In this document: in pieces, positions 5,525 to 64,000 of the stretch | How positions within the stretch are numbered: the first letter of the stretch is position 1 | Layout: every line of letters begins with the position of its first letter | Assembly (NCBI RefSeq): GCF_027023865.1 | Contig: NZ_JALVUC010000025.1 | Span: 135,826-199,825 of the forward strand | Reading direction: 5' to 3' | DNA from: Thermococcus sp. | GTDB lineage: Archaea; Methanobacteriota_B; Thermococci; Thermococcales; Thermococcaceae | DNA length: 64,000 nucleotides | Notes under the pieces: model-generated | The model's database searches: none | Told to the model about the DNA's origin: nothing | The model's input: the letters and a program-made list of their open reading frames with translations, nothing else | Position numbers and translations under genes: made by a program

Positions 5525-6199
5525 CTAAACTTCATCAAACATAGCGGCATCTATGTCAAGGCCGCTTAGGAGTAGACTAAGTGCATCTGCTAGGGCATCT
5601 GTGCTTCCATCGTAGACAAAGTCAAGGAGTTTCTTGCCAGCGTTTGTAAGTTTTCCTTTAACCCCAATTTTCTCGAGTAAGCTATCTAATATCGGCCATT
5701 CTGTCATCCCAACTGATATTATCCCATGGTGTCCATAACCAGCATTAAATTTAACCTTCTGCTCCCACCATCCTCCAAGACTAAGCCAACTGTCATAGTG
5801 GGCTACTAACACCTTGAATCTGCGACCGGCAACTCCATAGGAGTGAATGTAATCCTTCTTGAAGTGATCTCCATAGAAGCTGTACGTTGTCATGTCAGGC
5901 ATTACTGTCATTGTGACGTAGCCTCCAAGTGGTATCCATTTGAAAACCGAAACATGAATAGCGCCATATCCTTTGTGCTTAACTTTATATGTCTTAATGT
6001 ACGCTGATGCACCCGGAACCCAAATTTTCCCCTCACTTATAATGGCATCCCCTTTGAGCCATGTAAACACGACTGTCCCAAGTCCTACATGGTGCTGTGG
6101 GGCCGGCTGGTTGGGGATGGGCGCTGCCGCCGCGCTCCCAGCTGTCACTCCGATCATCAGCAGTCCCAACAGGACTGCGAACAACGGCTTCCACTTCAC
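5525..6199 (-). CDS. Secreted protein of unknown function, first gene of a membrane-protein cassette
   Basis: A 224-residue protein with a clear Sec signal peptide: basic start, Leu-rich core and an AGSAAAA cleavage region near residue 25. The mature part is rich in Gly, Tyr, His and Trp with a beta-like pattern, and ends in a Leu/Asp-rich helical tail (about residues 170-224). It has no cysteines and no recognised motif. GTG 6199 follows GAGGTGA better than GTG 6208. A secreted product followed by four small membrane proteins recalls bacteriocin or surface-protein cassettes, but no family was identified. Confidence 0.7.
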   Translation of the reverse strand: MKWKPLFAVLLGLLMIGVTAGSAAAAPIPNQPAPQHHVGLGTVVFTWLKGDAIISEGKIWVPGASAYIKTYKVKHKGYGAIHVSVFKWIPLGGYVTMTVMPDMTTYSFYGDHFKKDYIHSYGVAGRRFKVLVAHYDSWLSLGGWWEQKVKFNAGYGHHGIISVGMTEWPILDSLLEKIGVKGKLTNAGKKLLDFVYDGSTDALADALSLLLSGLDIDAAMFDEV

Positions 6200-6248
6200 G
6201 AGGTTCACCTCTTCACGATTTCTGCGTTACTCTATGGCCAACTTCTCC

Positions 6249-7023: not shown

Positions 7024-10917
<3,894 letters not shown>

Positions 10918-30881: not shown

Positions 30882-31960
30882 TTACATTAATCTTTTCCTC
30901 AAGAGAAGGGCACTGAGAGTTATCAGAACTATAAACGCAGGTCCGCAGATGCTCTTTTTGGTGGGTATTGAAGTCGTGGTTGTGTTCGCGTGGAGTGAAG
31001 TGGTATTCCCTCCAGCAGTGCGTGATGACCATGTCGTGTTCACTAACCTAATTGAAGTGACCGTTTCATTCGTTTTCTCGCTGGTGTTCGTGATGTTAAG
31101 CGTGGCGTTCTCCGGAATGGTTGTTTGGGCTATAGTCTCATTCGAGGTGGCGTTTTCTGGAGTAACAACCGGTTTGCAGAACGTTACGTTAACGATTTTA
31201 ACGCTACTCGGAAACCAGAAGCCGGTTAAGTTCTCAGTCGCGTTGATGTAGAAGAGCGTCACGTTTTTCACTTGGCCATCCTTTTCAAGGAGGAAGTAAA
31301 CCGGGAGCTTTGAGTGGGGGGTATTGCCAGGAACGGTGGAACGCTCGTGGGTTTCGTGACGCTTGAATTAACCCCAACGAAGAAGTAGGCTTTAAAAGGC
31401 CCGTAGTCAGGAGAAGGCAAAAACTCCTTCGGAACTACGATTTTCCAACCGTTTATTGTCCCGCGGGTTCTCATTATCGGAATGTTGGGGGATGTGACGT
31501 TAGTCTGTTCAACGCAGGAGGTATTCAGATTGAGGTGGTAAACGTATTTTTTGTTAAAACTTTCAACGGTTTCTGGAGAGTATGCGGAAAAGCTTACGTT
31601 AACGAACCAAGAACCGTTGGCGTAGTAAACCCAGTTGAAGTAAACGTAAGTTATGTTTTTGGGGGCGTAAGGCGGCAGGGATGCCTCCAACGCGGGAGTA
31701 AAGTTGAGGAGGTAGAACACAGAGCCGGTGTAATAGAATAAGTAATCATATACTTCATAAACTGACATCCAGCAGTTTCCTTTCATGTCGCAGGTGGTTC
31801 CCGTGTTGTCGATTTCGGCATTGATTAATGCCGCTGTCCCGTTGGAGTAAACCTTGTAGCTGACAACGTAGAAGTAACCGTTGAGCTTTACAGAGTAAAC
31901 CGCCGAAGCAACCGGGGCAAAAAGAAGGAGGATTAAAAGAGGAATCACCATTCGGGACAT
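30882..31960 (-). pseudogene. CGP-CTERM surface protein split by a frameshift in a C6 tract
   Basis: Two overlapping frames form one protein. The first (31960-31268) has a Sec signal peptide and a Tyr/Asn-rich beta-like ectodomain. At the tract of six C residues (31315-31320, G on the plus strand) the frame must shift by one to continue TPHSKLPVYFLLEKDGQVK and the rest. This ends in a Thr/Asn-rich stalk and ICGPAFIVLITLSALLLRKR, a CGP-CTERM sorting signal. One missing C, or -1 slippage, reconciles them into about 359 residues. The second frame has no good start of its own. It may be phase-variable, slippage-decoded, or broken. Confidence 0.8.
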
Positions 31961-53159: not shown

Positions 53160-53291
53160 TCAAACACCTCCATTTCCACTGGAAACGAAACTCCAGACTA
53201 AGGCGGTCGAGAAGAGGGGTTCACCAGGGCCAAAAGCGACCACCGTGCATGGGGTAGAAAGGGAAGGAAGGAGATTTAAAGTTTTTGGATA

Positions 53292-54110
53292 CTATCCATT
53301 GTTTTTCATTGTCAGTTTTTTGTATTTCACCACTATGGTATCTCGGCTTGCCCCTTCAATTATTATTTCCTTTGGAAGCCCCCTCGAGTTAACCCAAATT
53401 TTGTAATGTGGCAAAGTGCGTGTTTTGGGTGTTAAAACCCGGAGGTCTCCCCTTTTGGAGATATTGAACTGTTCAAGATTGAGAATCACTAACGCGAATG
53501 GATCAATGGCATCTGTGTTCGTCCAAGTTACGTTGAATGTAAAAGTACCATTGGTAGTTATGACTTTCTCGATGTTACCGTTAATAACAATTTTCTGAAT
53601 GAATTTGCCATTTGGCCAATAGTCCGCCCTGCTTATATAATCCGGTTTGGTGAAGTTAACATAGCTCTTAAAAGTATGGTTACCAATTATAACGACCTCT
53701 TGAGCTTTAAAGGACGTTATCGATTGCCAGTTAATATCCTGTGCTTGAGTCAAGACATATACGCCGATTAGAATGCCTAAAAAACTAACAAGGGTCAGGA
53801 TAATTAGATTTCGCCTTTTCACTCCCCGTAAACCAACCAAATACAAATAAGTGACGGCATAAACAACCAGAGAAGATATGTACGCAGGATTTAACCCCCA
53901 CAGTATAAACACCACGGCAAAGGAAAGCAGCACACCACAGCAAATCCACATGGAATACACCATTGAGGTAAGTCCAATAAACAGTATCAGCGCGATCTGA
54001 ATGGCACCTATAATATCGTGAAAAACTAAAAAATAGAGTAAAAAGCCGAATACAGGTCCAATTGCGGATAAGATCATTGCCAGCCTGCGGTTTTGGACTA
54101 TAGTCCCCAT
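53292..54110 (-). CDS. Membrane protein downstream of the halocin-like gene (candidate immunity protein)
   Basis: A 272-residue protein with about four to five membrane helices in residues 10-125 and an extracytoplasmic beta-rich domain (about 130-272) with several NxT/S sequons. It begins 15 bases after the bacteriocin-like gene, with no promoter between, so the two are co-transcribed. No family recognised. Immunity or export are reasonable roles by position only. The 132-bp gap to trpS holds a promoter region and no other gene. Confidence 0.7.
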   Translation of the reverse strand: MGTIVQNRRLAMILSAIGPVFGFLLYFLVFHDIIGAIQIALILFIGLTSMVYSMWICCGVLLSFAVVFILWGLNPAYISSLVVYAVTYLYLVGLRGVKRRNLIILTLVSFLGILIGVYVLTQAQDINWQSITSFKAQEVVIIGNHTFKSYVNFTKPDYISRADYWPNGKFIQKIVINGNIEKVITTNGTFTFNVTWTNTDAIDPFALVILNLEQFNISKRGDLRVLTPKTRTLPHYKIWVNSRGLPKEIIIEGASRDTIVVKYKKLTMKNNG

Positions 54111-54125
54111 ATGGAATCACACCCC

Positions 54126-54893
54126 TCAACACTTGCCTAGGGCATGGCATGCAGTCTTGCTCATATCATAACACGAGTATGCACTGCCCAGAATGACTGC
54201 TGTTTCACATATTATAAAGCACAGACCAACGGCAAGTGGACCCAGCACCGAGAACATTGGGCATCCAGTCCAACAGCCCATGCTTCCAGCAAATGCCATG
54301 GCACTCCCGCAGACAAAGGTTCCCAGAGCTATACATCTGGCACATGATAACCAGCCGAACAGTCCGAGTACCTTGATGTGCTCACCGTCCTTTATTACTT
54401 TGAGTGTTTTAACGGCTGTTCCATTGGTTATGTATATCATTGCTGAGTTGTTTTTGAGAATCACGATGGCCGAGGAGCTACCTCTTTCACTGTTGATATG
54501 ATAATACCTTCCAATTACCTTTCCCTGGCCGTTAGTGATGGACACAACCAGCGCTCTGGCAGAAAAATTGTTCGCTTTCACAAGAACATCTTTTGCCGTA
54601 CTGTACTGCGGTACGAGAGTCACGCCGTGGAGCTGACGCCTCAGAAGCCGTGAATCGTCACCATTAAAAGCCAAAGCAGCCTCAAAAGCGGCCACGGGAC
54701 CTCTCAGTACGGCGGCCTGCCTGCTGTGTATTCCCCCTTCCAATGCAGCACAGGGGGACTTTATCTCCACGGAGGTAGTGGTACCGTTCTGAACTTCAAC
54801 TGCAGCATTCAACGGGGCGCTAAAAACCAACCCAACAACAAGGATAAAAAACCCAAACGCCAGGAACTTCTTAAACTGAGGTTTTTCTATCAT
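54126..54893 (-). CDS. Halocin C8-like bacteriocin precursor
   Basis: A 255-residue precursor in three parts. A Sec-type signal peptide (residues 1-30, ending SAPLNA) is followed by a middle domain of about 150 residues, and then a C-terminal domain (181-255) with ten cysteines at 184, 187, 195, 207, 211, 225, 229, 241, 249 and 255, ending ACHALGKC. Halocin C8 also has ten cysteines, begins with C-x2-C-x7-C, has an x13 spacing in the middle, and ends C-x7-C-x5-C with AC-x3-G-x-C. Its precursor likewise carries an N-terminal part that confers immunity. The Gly/Ala/aromatic composition between cysteines also matches. The family call is strong; activity is untested. Confidence 0.85.
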   Translation of the reverse strand: MIEKPQFKKFLAFGFFILVVGLVFSAPLNAAVEVQNGTTTSVEIKSPCAALEGGIHSRQAAVLRGPVAAFEAALAFNGDDSRLLRRQLHGVTLVPQYSTAKDVLVKANNFSARALVVSITNGQGKVIGRYYHINSERGSSSAIVILKNNSAMIYITNGTAVKTLKVIKDGEHIKVLGLFGWLSCARCIALGTFVCGSAMAFAGSMGCWTGCPMFSVLGPLAVGLCFIICETAVILGSAYSCYDMSKTACHALGKC

Positions 54894-54918
54894 TTTCTCA
54901 CCCTAAAACAAAAATATC

Positions 54919-54948
54919 GCTATGCTCAACATAGCCTGTTAAATAAAT
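54919..54948 (-). promoter_or_regulatory. Promoter and palindrome of the halocin-like operon
   Basis: Minus-strand TTTATTTA at 54941-54948 is the TATA box, giving a transcript start near 54918. A perfect 6-bp inverted repeat, GCTATG-CTCAA-CATAGC, occupies 54919-54935, between the TATA box and the expected start: a repressor-like position. GGTGAG precedes ATG 54893. Confidence 0.5.
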
Positions 54949-55011
54949 GGAGTGATATCATCTAAGTGGAGAAACAAAGAGTAAAGATACTATTCGAACT
55001 AAAAGTGACTA

Positions 55012-60921: not shown

Positions 60922-61881
60922 TCACCCCATGAGCCTCTTCAATAGAGTGCGCTCCTTCCCATCCAAGAAGGAATCATCACCAACCAGAATAACAGTGCCG
61001 CCGTGGAGGTGGGCGTAGTCGCGGAGAGTGGTGAGAAACTTCAGAACGGGGATGAAGCCGTTCTCTAACATGAGGTATTCGAGGCCGTCTATAACGACCA
61101 CAGGCCTTACGCCTTTCTCCTCCGCCCGGGCCATGAACTTGACGGCCATGTCAAGCATCCTAGCGAGGTTCGTGGGACTAACAGACCTCTCTCCGGAAAC
61201 TTTGGTTATCCAGAAGCGGTTGGGGCCGTCACCGCGGGAGCGGGAGAAGACCAGGGCGCCGTCGAGAACCCCCTCTGGGACGGAAGACATCATCAGGAGA
61301 CCGGTCTTCACATCCAGGCGGGAATCAGTGAACTCGAAGTCCTCAAATAAGGACGCACCCATGAAAACATCGAGGACAACGTAGGCCATCAAGAACGCCC
61401 CCAAAGCCGCCGAGAGTTCGGCGTAGACGCTGGAAAAGAGAAACCCCCACACGGTCGCCGTACTGGAGAAAATCAACTCTGTGAGGCCCACACGGCGGAG
61501 GTCATTGCTTTTGACAAACATGAGGTAGAACCCAGCCCCAGCAATGCTCCCGACGAGGATGAAGAGGGTCACGGTCGGATGTCCCGGAAAGAGGAATATG
61601 AGGCCCGCGAGGGGAACGAGGGCCAGGTAGCGGAACTCCCTGGCGTTTGGCAGGGGTTTGAAAAGCTCGTCGGCGGCCTCGATGTTGGCCAGCCACAGAA
61701 AGGCTGCTGAGAATGCAAGGGATGCAGAATAAACACTGGCGTCCCTCACGAAGAAGGGGACCGCGAGGGCGAAGAGGGCGAGGGAGTAGTAGGCCAAGGA
61801 GCGGCGGTTGGTGAAGTGATACCTGTAGAAGAGAAGAACATAGGCAACGAGCAGGGCCACCCCAAAGGCGAACTCAATCAT
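60922..61881 (-). CDS. Seven-helix membrane protein with C-terminal DUF835 domain
   Basis: A 319-residue protein. About seven membrane helices (1-190) are followed by a cytoplasmic DUF835 domain (about 195-319) with VVIDGLEYLMLENGF and GTVILVGDDSFLDGKE. DUF835 resembles a RecA-like fold without a P-loop and is common in Thermococcales, where its role is unknown. The ATG overlaps the stop of the deaminase gene (ATGA). Confidence 0.85.
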   Translation of the reverse strand: MIEFAFGVALLVAYVLLFYRYHFTNRRSLAYYSLALFALAVPFFVRDASVYSASLAFSAAFLWLANIEAADELFKPLPNAREFRYLALVPLAGLIFLFPGHPTVTLFILVGSIAGAGFYLMFVKSNDLRRVGLTELIFSSTATVWGFLFSSVYAELSAALGAFLMAYVVLDVFMGASLFEDFEFTDSRLDVKTGLLMMSSVPEGVLDGALVFSRSRGDGPNRFWITKVSGERSVSPTNLARMLDMAVKFMARAEEKGVRPVVVIDGLEYLMLENGFIPVLKFLTTLRDYAHLHGGTVILVGDDSFLDGKERTLLKRLMG

Positions 61882-63152
61882 GCCAGCTCACCGATGACCC
61901 TTTCCGCATCGCTGAGAATTTTCTCCTCGTCCAGTGTCAGTACTTCCCCGTCGAGCATTAAAACCCTTCCGTCCACTATCGTAGTCTCGACGTCGTTTCC
62001 GTTGGCGGAATAGACAAGGTGGCTTATCACGTTGTTCACCGGCCTGAGGTGTGGCCTGGTGAAGTTGATTACCGCCAGATCGGCCAGATAACCCTCCCTT
62101 ATTACTCCAGCCTCGATTCCGAGTGCCTTCGCACCGTTGGCAGTCGCCATCCTAAAGACGGTTTTGGCATCGGCAACGGTCGGATCGAGGTTGTGAACCT
62201 TGTGAAGAAGCGCTGCCAACTTCATCTCCTCAAGCATGTCTAGGTTGTTGTTGCTTGCCGCTCCGTCGGTACCGAGGGCGACGTTGACACCAGCGTTGAG
62301 CAACTTTTGAATGGGCATGACACCGCTCGCCAGCTTCATGTTACTCCCTGGGTTGTGGACGACGGTAACCCCGTCCCTCGCGAGTATCTGGATGTCTCTG
62401 CTGTCGAGCCAGACACCGTGGGCGATGATGACGTCCCTTCCAAAAAAGCCGATTTCGTCGAGCAGAACAACGGGACTTTTGCCATAGCGCTCGGTTATCT
62501 GGCCTATCTCCGCCATCGTCTCACTTACGTGGATGGTTATCATCTTGCCGTGTTCGCTCGCGAGCCTTCTGACCTCTCCCAGCAGTGCTATCGAGCAGGT
62601 GTAGGGCGCGTGCGGTCCGAAGACAAAGTTAACCCTGTCAGAGTTGAGCCTCTCCATGAACTCCATCGTGCGAAGGGCTTCCTTGATTTCCTTCTCGGTT
62701 CTCTCCGGGTCGCCGAGGTCTATCATGCCATAGGAGAGGTAACCGCGGAGACCGCTCTCGAGCGTCACCTCAGCTACGGCATCCATGTTGAAGTACATGT
62801 CGAGGAAGGTTCCGGTTCCCGACGTTATCATCTCAAGCGCGCCGAGATATGCCCCGACTTTCGTGTATTCCCGCGTCAGCTTTGCCTCGCGTGGCCAGAT
62901 GTAGTTCTGGAGCCAGTCCATAAGAGGCAGGTCATCGGCCAAACCCCTGAAAAGGCCCATCGGCGAGTGGGTGTGGAGGTTAATGAAGGCAGGAGAAACG
63001 ATTCTTCCTTTGGCGTCTATGACGGTATCGGTGCTTTCGTTTATGCCCTTCGCGACCTTTGCTATCCTGTTTCCCTCGATTAAAACGTCGGCCTCAACGA
63101 CCTCAAAGTTCCTCCCGTAGATGACCTTACCATTCTTGATGAGAATGCTCAT
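61878..63152 (-). CDS. Amidohydrolase: 5'-deoxyadenosine/MTA/SAH deaminase type
   Basis: A 424-residue metal-dependent deaminase. The metal motif NLHTHSPMGLFRGLADDLPL is near residue 55, later ligands are in FVFGPHAPYTCS, ITIHVSETMAE and VVHNPGSNMKLASG, and the catalytic Asp is in ALGTDGAASNNNLDMLEE. These motifs match the MtaD/DadD family, which deaminates methylthioadenosine, S-adenosylhomocysteine or 5'-deoxyadenosine. ATG 63152 follows GGGGTGAT. Next to the MTA phosphorylase gene, it suggests salvage of SAM by-products. Confidence 0.9.
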   Translation of the reverse strand: MSILIKNGKVIYGRNFEVVEADVLIEGNRIAKVAKGINESTDTVIDAKGRIVSPAFINLHTHSPMGLFRGLADDLPLMDWLQNYIWPREAKLTREYTKVGAYLGALEMITSGTGTFLDMYFNMDAVAEVTLESGLRGYLSYGMIDLGDPERTEKEIKEALRTMEFMERLNSDRVNFVFGPHAPYTCSIALLGEVRRLASEHGKMITIHVSETMAEIGQITERYGKSPVVLLDEIGFFGRDVIIAHGVWLDSRDIQILARDGVTVVHNPGSNMKLASGVMPIQKLLNAGVNVALGTDGAASNNNLDMLEEMKLAALLHKVHNLDPTVADAKTVFRMATANGAKALGIEAGVIREGYLADLAVINFTRPHLRPVNNVISHLVYSANGNDVETTIVDGRVLMLDGEVLTLDEEKILSDAERVIGELA

Positions 63153-63215
63153 GAGCATCACCCCTTTTGAAGAGGTGTGTTTCCAGTGGAAGTTAAAAAG
63201 GTTGGGGAGAAGAGG

Positions 63216-63989
63216 TCAGACGAACATGCTCTTCAGCACATCAGCGCAACCGCAGTGCCTCTCCTCTGGGATTTTTGGAACGGCCTTCTTAAGAAGCTCC
63301 TGGACCTTGGCGTTGTTCTCGGCCATGACCCTGATGACCTCCTGCGCATCCACGGGCTTGTCGGCCCAGACGTCGTAGTCGGTGACGGTTGCGAGGTTCG
63401 CGTAGCACATTCCGAGCTCGCGCGCGAGATTTATCTCCGGGACGAGCGTCATCCCAATGATATGGGCATATTGCTTGAACATCATCGACTCGGCGCGAGT
63501 TGAGAAGCGCGGGCCTTCAATGCAGACGTAGGTGCCCTTCTCGTGGACGGGGAAGCCGAGTTCTTTAGCCGTCTCGTAAAATATCCTCCTCAGCTCGGGG
63601 CAGAAGGGGTCAGCCATCGAGACGTGGGCCACCTTAGGTCCGTTGTAGAAGGTGTAGTCGCGCTTTTTGGTAAAGTCTATGAACTGATCCGTTATGACTA
63701 TGTCCCCCGGTTTATACCCCTCCCTGAGGGAGCCAACGGCGGTAACGCCTATAACGCGCTCGATGCCAAGCTCGTGAAGCGCCCAAATGTTCGCCCGGTA
63801 TGGAACCTCATGCGGCGGGAATTCATGGTGCTTGCCGTGCCGTGGGATGAATGCGACCTCAACACCCTCAATCTCCCCGATTTGCACCGGAGCCGACGGC
63901 CTGCCGTAGGGGGTGTGCATTTTTACCGTCTCTTTTGGCTCAAAGACACCATAGACGCCGGAGCCGCCGATGATACCGATTTTCACCAT
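63216..63989 (-). CDS. mtnP: S-methyl-5'-thioadenosine phosphorylase
   Basis: A 257-residue trimeric-type purine nucleoside phosphorylase. The phosphate site [10 protein letters not shown] is at residues 4-13, the [25 protein letters not shown] block near residue 48, the base-binding [16 protein letters not shown] near residue 172, and the C-terminal purine-site Asp in VTDYDVW. It splits MTA to adenine and methylthioribose 1-phosphate. ATG 63989 follows GGGTGATG. Confidence 0.94.
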
Positions 63990-64000
63990 AGACATCACCC

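Follow-up and report, generated by a model that had tools for sequence, protein, structure and literature searches.

The analysis concerns a 64,000-nucleotide stretch of a Thermococcus genome (contig NZ_JALVUC010000025.1, positions 135,826 to 199,825; below called the window, whose own numbering is used) and an exported, cysteine-rich protein encoded in it, P0001. We consider it likely that a secreted peptide toxin rich in disulfides (an archaeocin) and directed against close relatives is made from P0001 as its precursor, and that the membrane half of the partner protein encoded next to it protects the producer. For the order Thermococcales as a whole, the evidence leans slightly towards a Sec-exported polymorphic archaeocin system, in which two leader families (I and II) would be interchangeable carriers for a recombining pool of at least 10 classes of disulfide-stapled helical-hairpin peptides. 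The halocin C8-like peptides would be one of these classes, each peptide would be accompanied by a membrane immunity protein of its own, and a dedicated lipoprotein would be added in family I.

The reading frame of P0001 is real and lies on the minus strand, at the coordinates given in an earlier note that was made from the sequence alone. Its parts are listed here.

54126 to 54893, minus strand: precursor P0001, 255 amino acids, family I leader plus ten-cysteine tail (ATG at 54893, stop at 54126)
54898 to 54902, minus strand: ribosome-binding site GGTGA, 4 bases 5' of the ATG, from the sequence
54804 to 54893, minus strand: Sec-type signal peptide, about residues 1-30, with a hydrophobic run at residues 9-25 and a putative cleavage point
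54345 to 54803, minus strand: family I leader domain, residues 31-183, conserved under different tails (L..GP.A...A...F) according to alignments and a profile search
54129 to 54344, minus strand: cysteine-rich tail C184-C255, the predicted mature peptide, with ten cysteines in palindromic gaps and a full-length alignment to TIGR04449

The tail has 72 residues, its ten cysteines are separated by gaps of 2-7-11-3-13-3-11-7-5 and it ends in ACHALGKC, exactly as the earlier note had described. Between signal and tail lies a middle part of about 150 residues. A twin-arginine (RR) motif was looked for in the signal sequence and none was present. The sample consisted of 94 genomes of the order Thermococcales, the order named in the earlier note, with which the gene content agrees. 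A sequence search of these gave eight homologs of P0001, and a profile of the family I leader was found in 12 of the 94 genomes, the window's genome included, with one broken copy in addition. Weak matches to residues 6-60 in many genomes were set aside as signal-peptide matches. A scan of genome contigs with P0001 as the query gave no match, and profile searches with the leader, the lipoprotein and the partner in Pfam, PADLOC and PDB gave no credible one.

The model for the halocin C8 domain (TIGR04449, halocin_C8_dom of NCBIfam), which has a curated cut-off of 24 bits, led to a second leader family. This family II is unrelated to family I and occurs in precursors of 315-330 residues. Its profile detects more than 40 copies in 29 of the 94 genomes, spread over three genera, with four copies in the window's genome, one of which is a remnant. 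The family II leaders are 48-98% identical and the tails behind them are nearly all rich in cysteine, with 6 to 20 cysteines. Together the two families give a set of 56 precursors, the tails of which fall into 10 classes by BLAST, are mostly hydrophobic and match no family other than TIGR04449. Leaders that are 54% alike can carry tails that are 97% alike, and conversely leaders that are 93% alike can carry tails that are only 30% alike. The plasmid collection held no relatives of P0002, a sibling of P0001 with a homologous leader, and the phage collection held none of a family II precursor. Both leader families draw on one common pool of cysteine-rich tails.

Most of the 56 precursors are followed by a gene for a small membrane protein, the family of which tracks the tail and not the leader. 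Clustering of these partner proteins at E 1e-5 gave 19 classes, each of which is confined to a single tail class (homogeneity 1.00, as compared to at most 0.62 in permutations). When the tails are divided more finely, one or two of the partner classes extend over a pair of related sub-classes. For full-length family II precursors the correlation is 0.75 between tail and partner similarity, 0.22 between leader and tail, and 0.15 between leader and partner. The two leader families also have one tail-partner type in common, found under family I in genomes G018 and G070 and under family II in G070. Relics of such gene pairs were found as well. The array in G070 consists of a full precursor with its partner, then a truncated precursor with another tail and the partner of that tail, and at the end a bare tail remnant (ending GAGVYTACQIGGAHICEKAGLC) with the partner type that follows the same tail in G072. 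In G029 two partner-type genes and a broken lipoprotein are kept and the intact precursor is lost, and in G061 an 85-residue membrane gene and the lipoprotein are present without a precursor. Truncated cassettes and orphan partners are what would be expected of toxin-immunity cassettes. Conserved leaders, swapped tails, matched partners and such relics together make up the gene arrangement of a polymorphic toxin system that includes immunity genes.

In the window the partner gene and the sites relevant to the history of the locus are the following.

53292 to 54110, minus strand: partner gene, 272 amino acids, beginning 15 bases 3' of the P0001 stop
53742 to 54110, minus strand: membrane half of the partner, residues 1-123, about 4-5 transmembrane segments, candidate immunity protein by position
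53295 to 53741, minus strand: lipoprotein-like domain of the partner, residues 124-272, with 51% identity to the separate lipoproteins encoded downstream of other family I precursors
53160 to 55011, no strand assigned: interval of 1852 bp between the tryptophanyl-tRNA synthetase and acyl-CoA synthetase-like genes, occupied by the module; in four relatives the same interval is an empty site of about 120 bp
63162 to 63215, no strand assigned: empty canonical site, where the MTA phosphorylase is directly followed by the amidohydrolase

The family I locus of most relatives is situated after the MTA phosphorylase gene and contains the precursor, a small membrane protein and a lipoprotein of 170-175 residues. 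In the window this canonical site is empty, with the MTA phosphorylase gene (63216-63998) adjoining the amidohydrolase gene (61878-63161). The module instead sits between the acyl-CoA synthetase-like and tryptophanyl-tRNA synthetase genes, which are adjacent in four relatives, and a single 272-residue gene encodes a fusion of the membrane protein with the lipoprotein domain. Since the interval measures 1852 bp here and about 120 bp in the four relatives, the module is an insertion of about 1.7 kb. The partner gene is AT-rich, with a GC content of 40% as compared to 51% for the window, and the lipoprotein is almost confined to genomes with a family I leader. P0001 and the partner gene are probably on one transcript, because the partner starts 15 bases after the P0001 stop on the same strand. 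Its position and the rule that emerges from the other loci point to this pair as a putative toxin with its immunity protein. Assignment of the membrane half to another partner class was considered and dropped, as only weak hydrophobic matches were obtained.

The earlier note had read P0001 as a halocin C8-like bacteriocin. The family relationship is borne out; the profile cut-off, the leader and the type of signal peptide do not agree with that reading. Residues 184-255 align to positions 1-69 of the 69 positions of TIGR04449, thus to the whole profile, at 15.8 bits (18.5 in a single-genome search) and below the cut-off. In the same comparison P0002 passes with 41.6 bits, as does a precursor from the same genome as P0001 (L014; 33.1-36.4 bits). 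The cysteine gaps of P0002 (2-7-11-3-20-3-8-7-5) are identical to those of P0001 at seven of nine places. To tail class T1, the halocin C8-like class, the P0001 tail scores 15.1 bits, or 20.5 bits when haloarchaeal tails are included. With the models that could be made of other tail classes it reaches no more than 0.5 bits. The real tail outscores all 3000 shuffles in which the cysteines were moved under a model built from 12 other tails; with the cysteines held fixed, 43 of 3000 shuffles match it, and 5 of 3000 under a 15-tail model. The cysteine positions carry most of the match and the other residues a smaller part. The sub-cut-off score, the shuffle tests and the very low scores to other classes together show the tail to be related to the halocin C8 domain but divergent from it, and not a curated member.

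Halocin C8 itself, as read from Natrinema altunense (L024), has gaps of 2-7-3-7-13-7-8-8-5. This agrees with the ten cysteines, the C-x2-C-x7-C start and the x13 gap that the earlier note had named, but the peptide ends with C-x8-C-x5-C instead of the claimed C-x7-C-x5-C, and the arrangement of its cysteines in the middle is another one. The spacing of P0001 does not match that of halocin C8; both fit subsets of one 12-cysteine framework. As to the precursor plan, which was said to be the same, the outline is alike, but the signal is Sec-like and not of the twin-arginine translocation (Tat) type, and an hhalign comparison detected no domain similarity between the leader and that of halocin C8 (HalI), for which reason their equation was dropped. 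Among homologs the cysteine framework is kept, but depending on the class a tail has between 6 and 20 cysteines.

The framework shared by aligned T1 tails is 2-7-x-3-3-y-3-3-z-7-5, and cysteines are absent from it as mirror-image pairs. The innermost C6 and C7 are missing in P0001, P0002 and L128, C5 and C8 in halocin C8, and C3 and C10 in the family I tail of G018. Tails of class T3 appear also to lack C1 and C12, although this is a reading by eye and T3 is a separate BLAST class. Such pairwise absence suggests a nested disulfide ladder running from C1-C12 to C6-C7. The gaps of P0001 form a palindrome (permutation p=0.003), the median p for T1 is 0.0075, and all classes combined give 7e-6, though the classes may be related. 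AlphaFold modelling of the P0001 tail with three haloarchaeal tails predicts four helices (tail residues 4-20, 24-37, 39-55 and 59-72; pLDDT 69, pTM 0.51) that are in register with nested cysteine pairing. The fold of the whole protein from a single sequence was uninformative (pLDDT 46).

In view of the above, a mechanism can be proposed in which the Sec signal exports P0001 and the conserved leader (residues about 31-183) serves as a carrier or chaperone. The ten-cysteine tail would fold as a helical hairpin held together by disulfides in a nested order (C184-C255, C187-C249, C195-C241, C207-C229 and C211-C225) and would be cut off outside the cell, after which the freed peptide could attack and damage the membrane of related, non-immune neighbours. 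The membrane half of the directly downstream partner gene would give the producer specific immunity. The fused lipoprotein domain, a common accessory of the family I leader, may bind the peptide at the cell surface. Tail and protector would travel as a cassette; across the order, tails have changed places among the copies of a single leader as well as from one of the two unrelated leader families to the other.

Further halocin C8-like precursors occur in the genome of the window, one of them 6.3 kb to its left (36.4 bits). At this distance contig C25 (128523-129503; L073 6521-7507) encodes a family II precursor with a 12-cysteine tail above the TIGR04449 cut-off and a membrane partner of 103 residues. 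The locus has a further membrane gene of 94 residues, relatives of which follow a different tail (WSC/WGCISSIISC), and this is a candidate orphan immunity gene. Two more family II precursors, both with a partner gene and with tails of other types, are located on contig C23 (22627-23584; L126) and on contig C1 (57800-58732; L074), where the contig end cuts the copy. PIN-domain-like toxin and small antitoxin-like open reading frames near family II loci at the IleRS site (L076 7296-7673, L073 4949-5320) suggest a conflict-gene island. On plasmids of Halobacterium and Haloferax an open reading frame of 68 residues with two transmembrane segments lies directly 3' of a halocin C8-like gene (L094 3304-3510, L095 3299-3505) and is possibly a second immunity gene beside the leader-borne immunity. 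Elsewhere in the window there are a ribonucleotide reductase-like gene of 1292 residues with an apparent intein that has a homing-endonuclease-like part (7024-10902), and two exported proteins of 227 and 230 residues with signal peptides and no known family (5525-6208 and 31268-31960).

Other explanations differ in where they place protection and in what they take the tails to be. Halocin C8 and its immunity protein are produced from a single gene (PMC3831642, PMC8628083, PMC11509114), and the precursor outline of P0001 is similar. The family I leader could therefore act like HalI as an N-terminal part that neutralises the tail, and the downstream gene would have another role. This is improbable, since leaders that are 85-93% identical bear unrelated tails, so that the leader cannot be what protects against a particular tail; it is the downstream gene that tracks the tail. 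The lack of detectable similarity to HalI argues in the same direction, as do Halobacterium and Haloferax larsenii loci, which also have the 68-residue frame with two transmembrane segments right downstream. It is marginally less improbable, yet still unlikely, that the precursors are hypervariable surface proteins which display their tails for kin recognition, with the partners as anchors. This is one option proposed for VARTIG, a hypervariable module of the same order that resembles polymorphic toxin systems, lacks any known toxin domain and comes with membrane proteins matched to it (PMC8416519). However, the T1 tails belong to a family named for an experimentally antimicrobial peptide, and orphan partners that outlast the loss of the precursor, as in G029 and G061, fit immunity better than anchoring. 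Least credible is a secreted metal- or redox-binding protein with a likeness to halocin C8 by convergence. The sub-threshold score and the large share of the cysteine pattern in the match would suit it, but swapped tails, membrane partners that match them and the remnants of cassettes are out of place for a housekeeping metalloprotein, and the tails are mostly hydrophobic with a palindromic gap pattern.

Several observations count against P0001 being a toxin precursor with its own immunity gene. Its profile score is below the cut-off, and with cysteines held fixed 43-52 of 3000 shuffles equal it under two models, so the likeness is modest. The structure model of the tail is of medium confidence and was built from four sequences, and a Foldseek search with it against solved structures gave no significant match (saposin B, E 9.4). 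Both the P0001 tail and the membrane half of its partner are singletons in the set of 56 precursors, and the co-segregation of tail and partner was seen at other loci. Next to P0001 there was no sign of a transporter or maturation protease dedicated to it, the rest of the genome not having been searched.

With about fifty precursors, matched candidate immunity genes and tail swapping that is visible in the sequences, the system makes warfare between strains of hyperthermophiles directly testable and could yield disulfide peptides of very high heat stability. The tail pool accounts for a possible spread of halocin C8-like domains among carriers that are unrelated, and a polymorphic pool with matched membrane partners is a larger picture than the earlier note gave. 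Few antimicrobial peptides are known outside the haloarchaea. A survey of archaeal toxins by Makarova et al. (mBio 2019) reportedly enlarged the halocin C8 family. Cysteine-rich archaeocins of the Thermococcales are not described in the searchable literature, and that survey, which was outside its reach, may list some.

In comparison with known systems, the precursors share with polymorphic toxin systems a conserved N-terminal carrier, exchangeable C-terminal warheads, matched downstream partners, truncated cassettes and orphan partners. They differ in being short (255-380 residues), in their cysteine-rich peptide warheads and in showing, for export, nothing beyond a simple signal peptide. A contact-dependent apparatus for delivery was not recognised; beside the precursor genes none was found, and a genome-wide search was not made. 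VARTIG (PMC8416519) occurs in the same order and likewise has a hypervariable C-terminus and downstream membrane proteins that follow the variant, but it comprises large immunoglobulin-domain proteins of another gene family without cysteine-rich tails. Saposin-like cysteine-stapled helical peptides would be alike in their helices and nested disulfides, as predicted for P0001, by analogy only. Like P0001, halocin C8 is made as an exported precursor with a C-terminal region of about 70-76 residues that has ten cysteines and a C-x2-C-x7-C start. The two peptides realise the common framework by dispensing with different pairs, C6/C7 and C5/C8, respectively, and P0001 departs from halocin C8 in its Sec-like signal, its unrelated leader and its separate candidate immunity gene.
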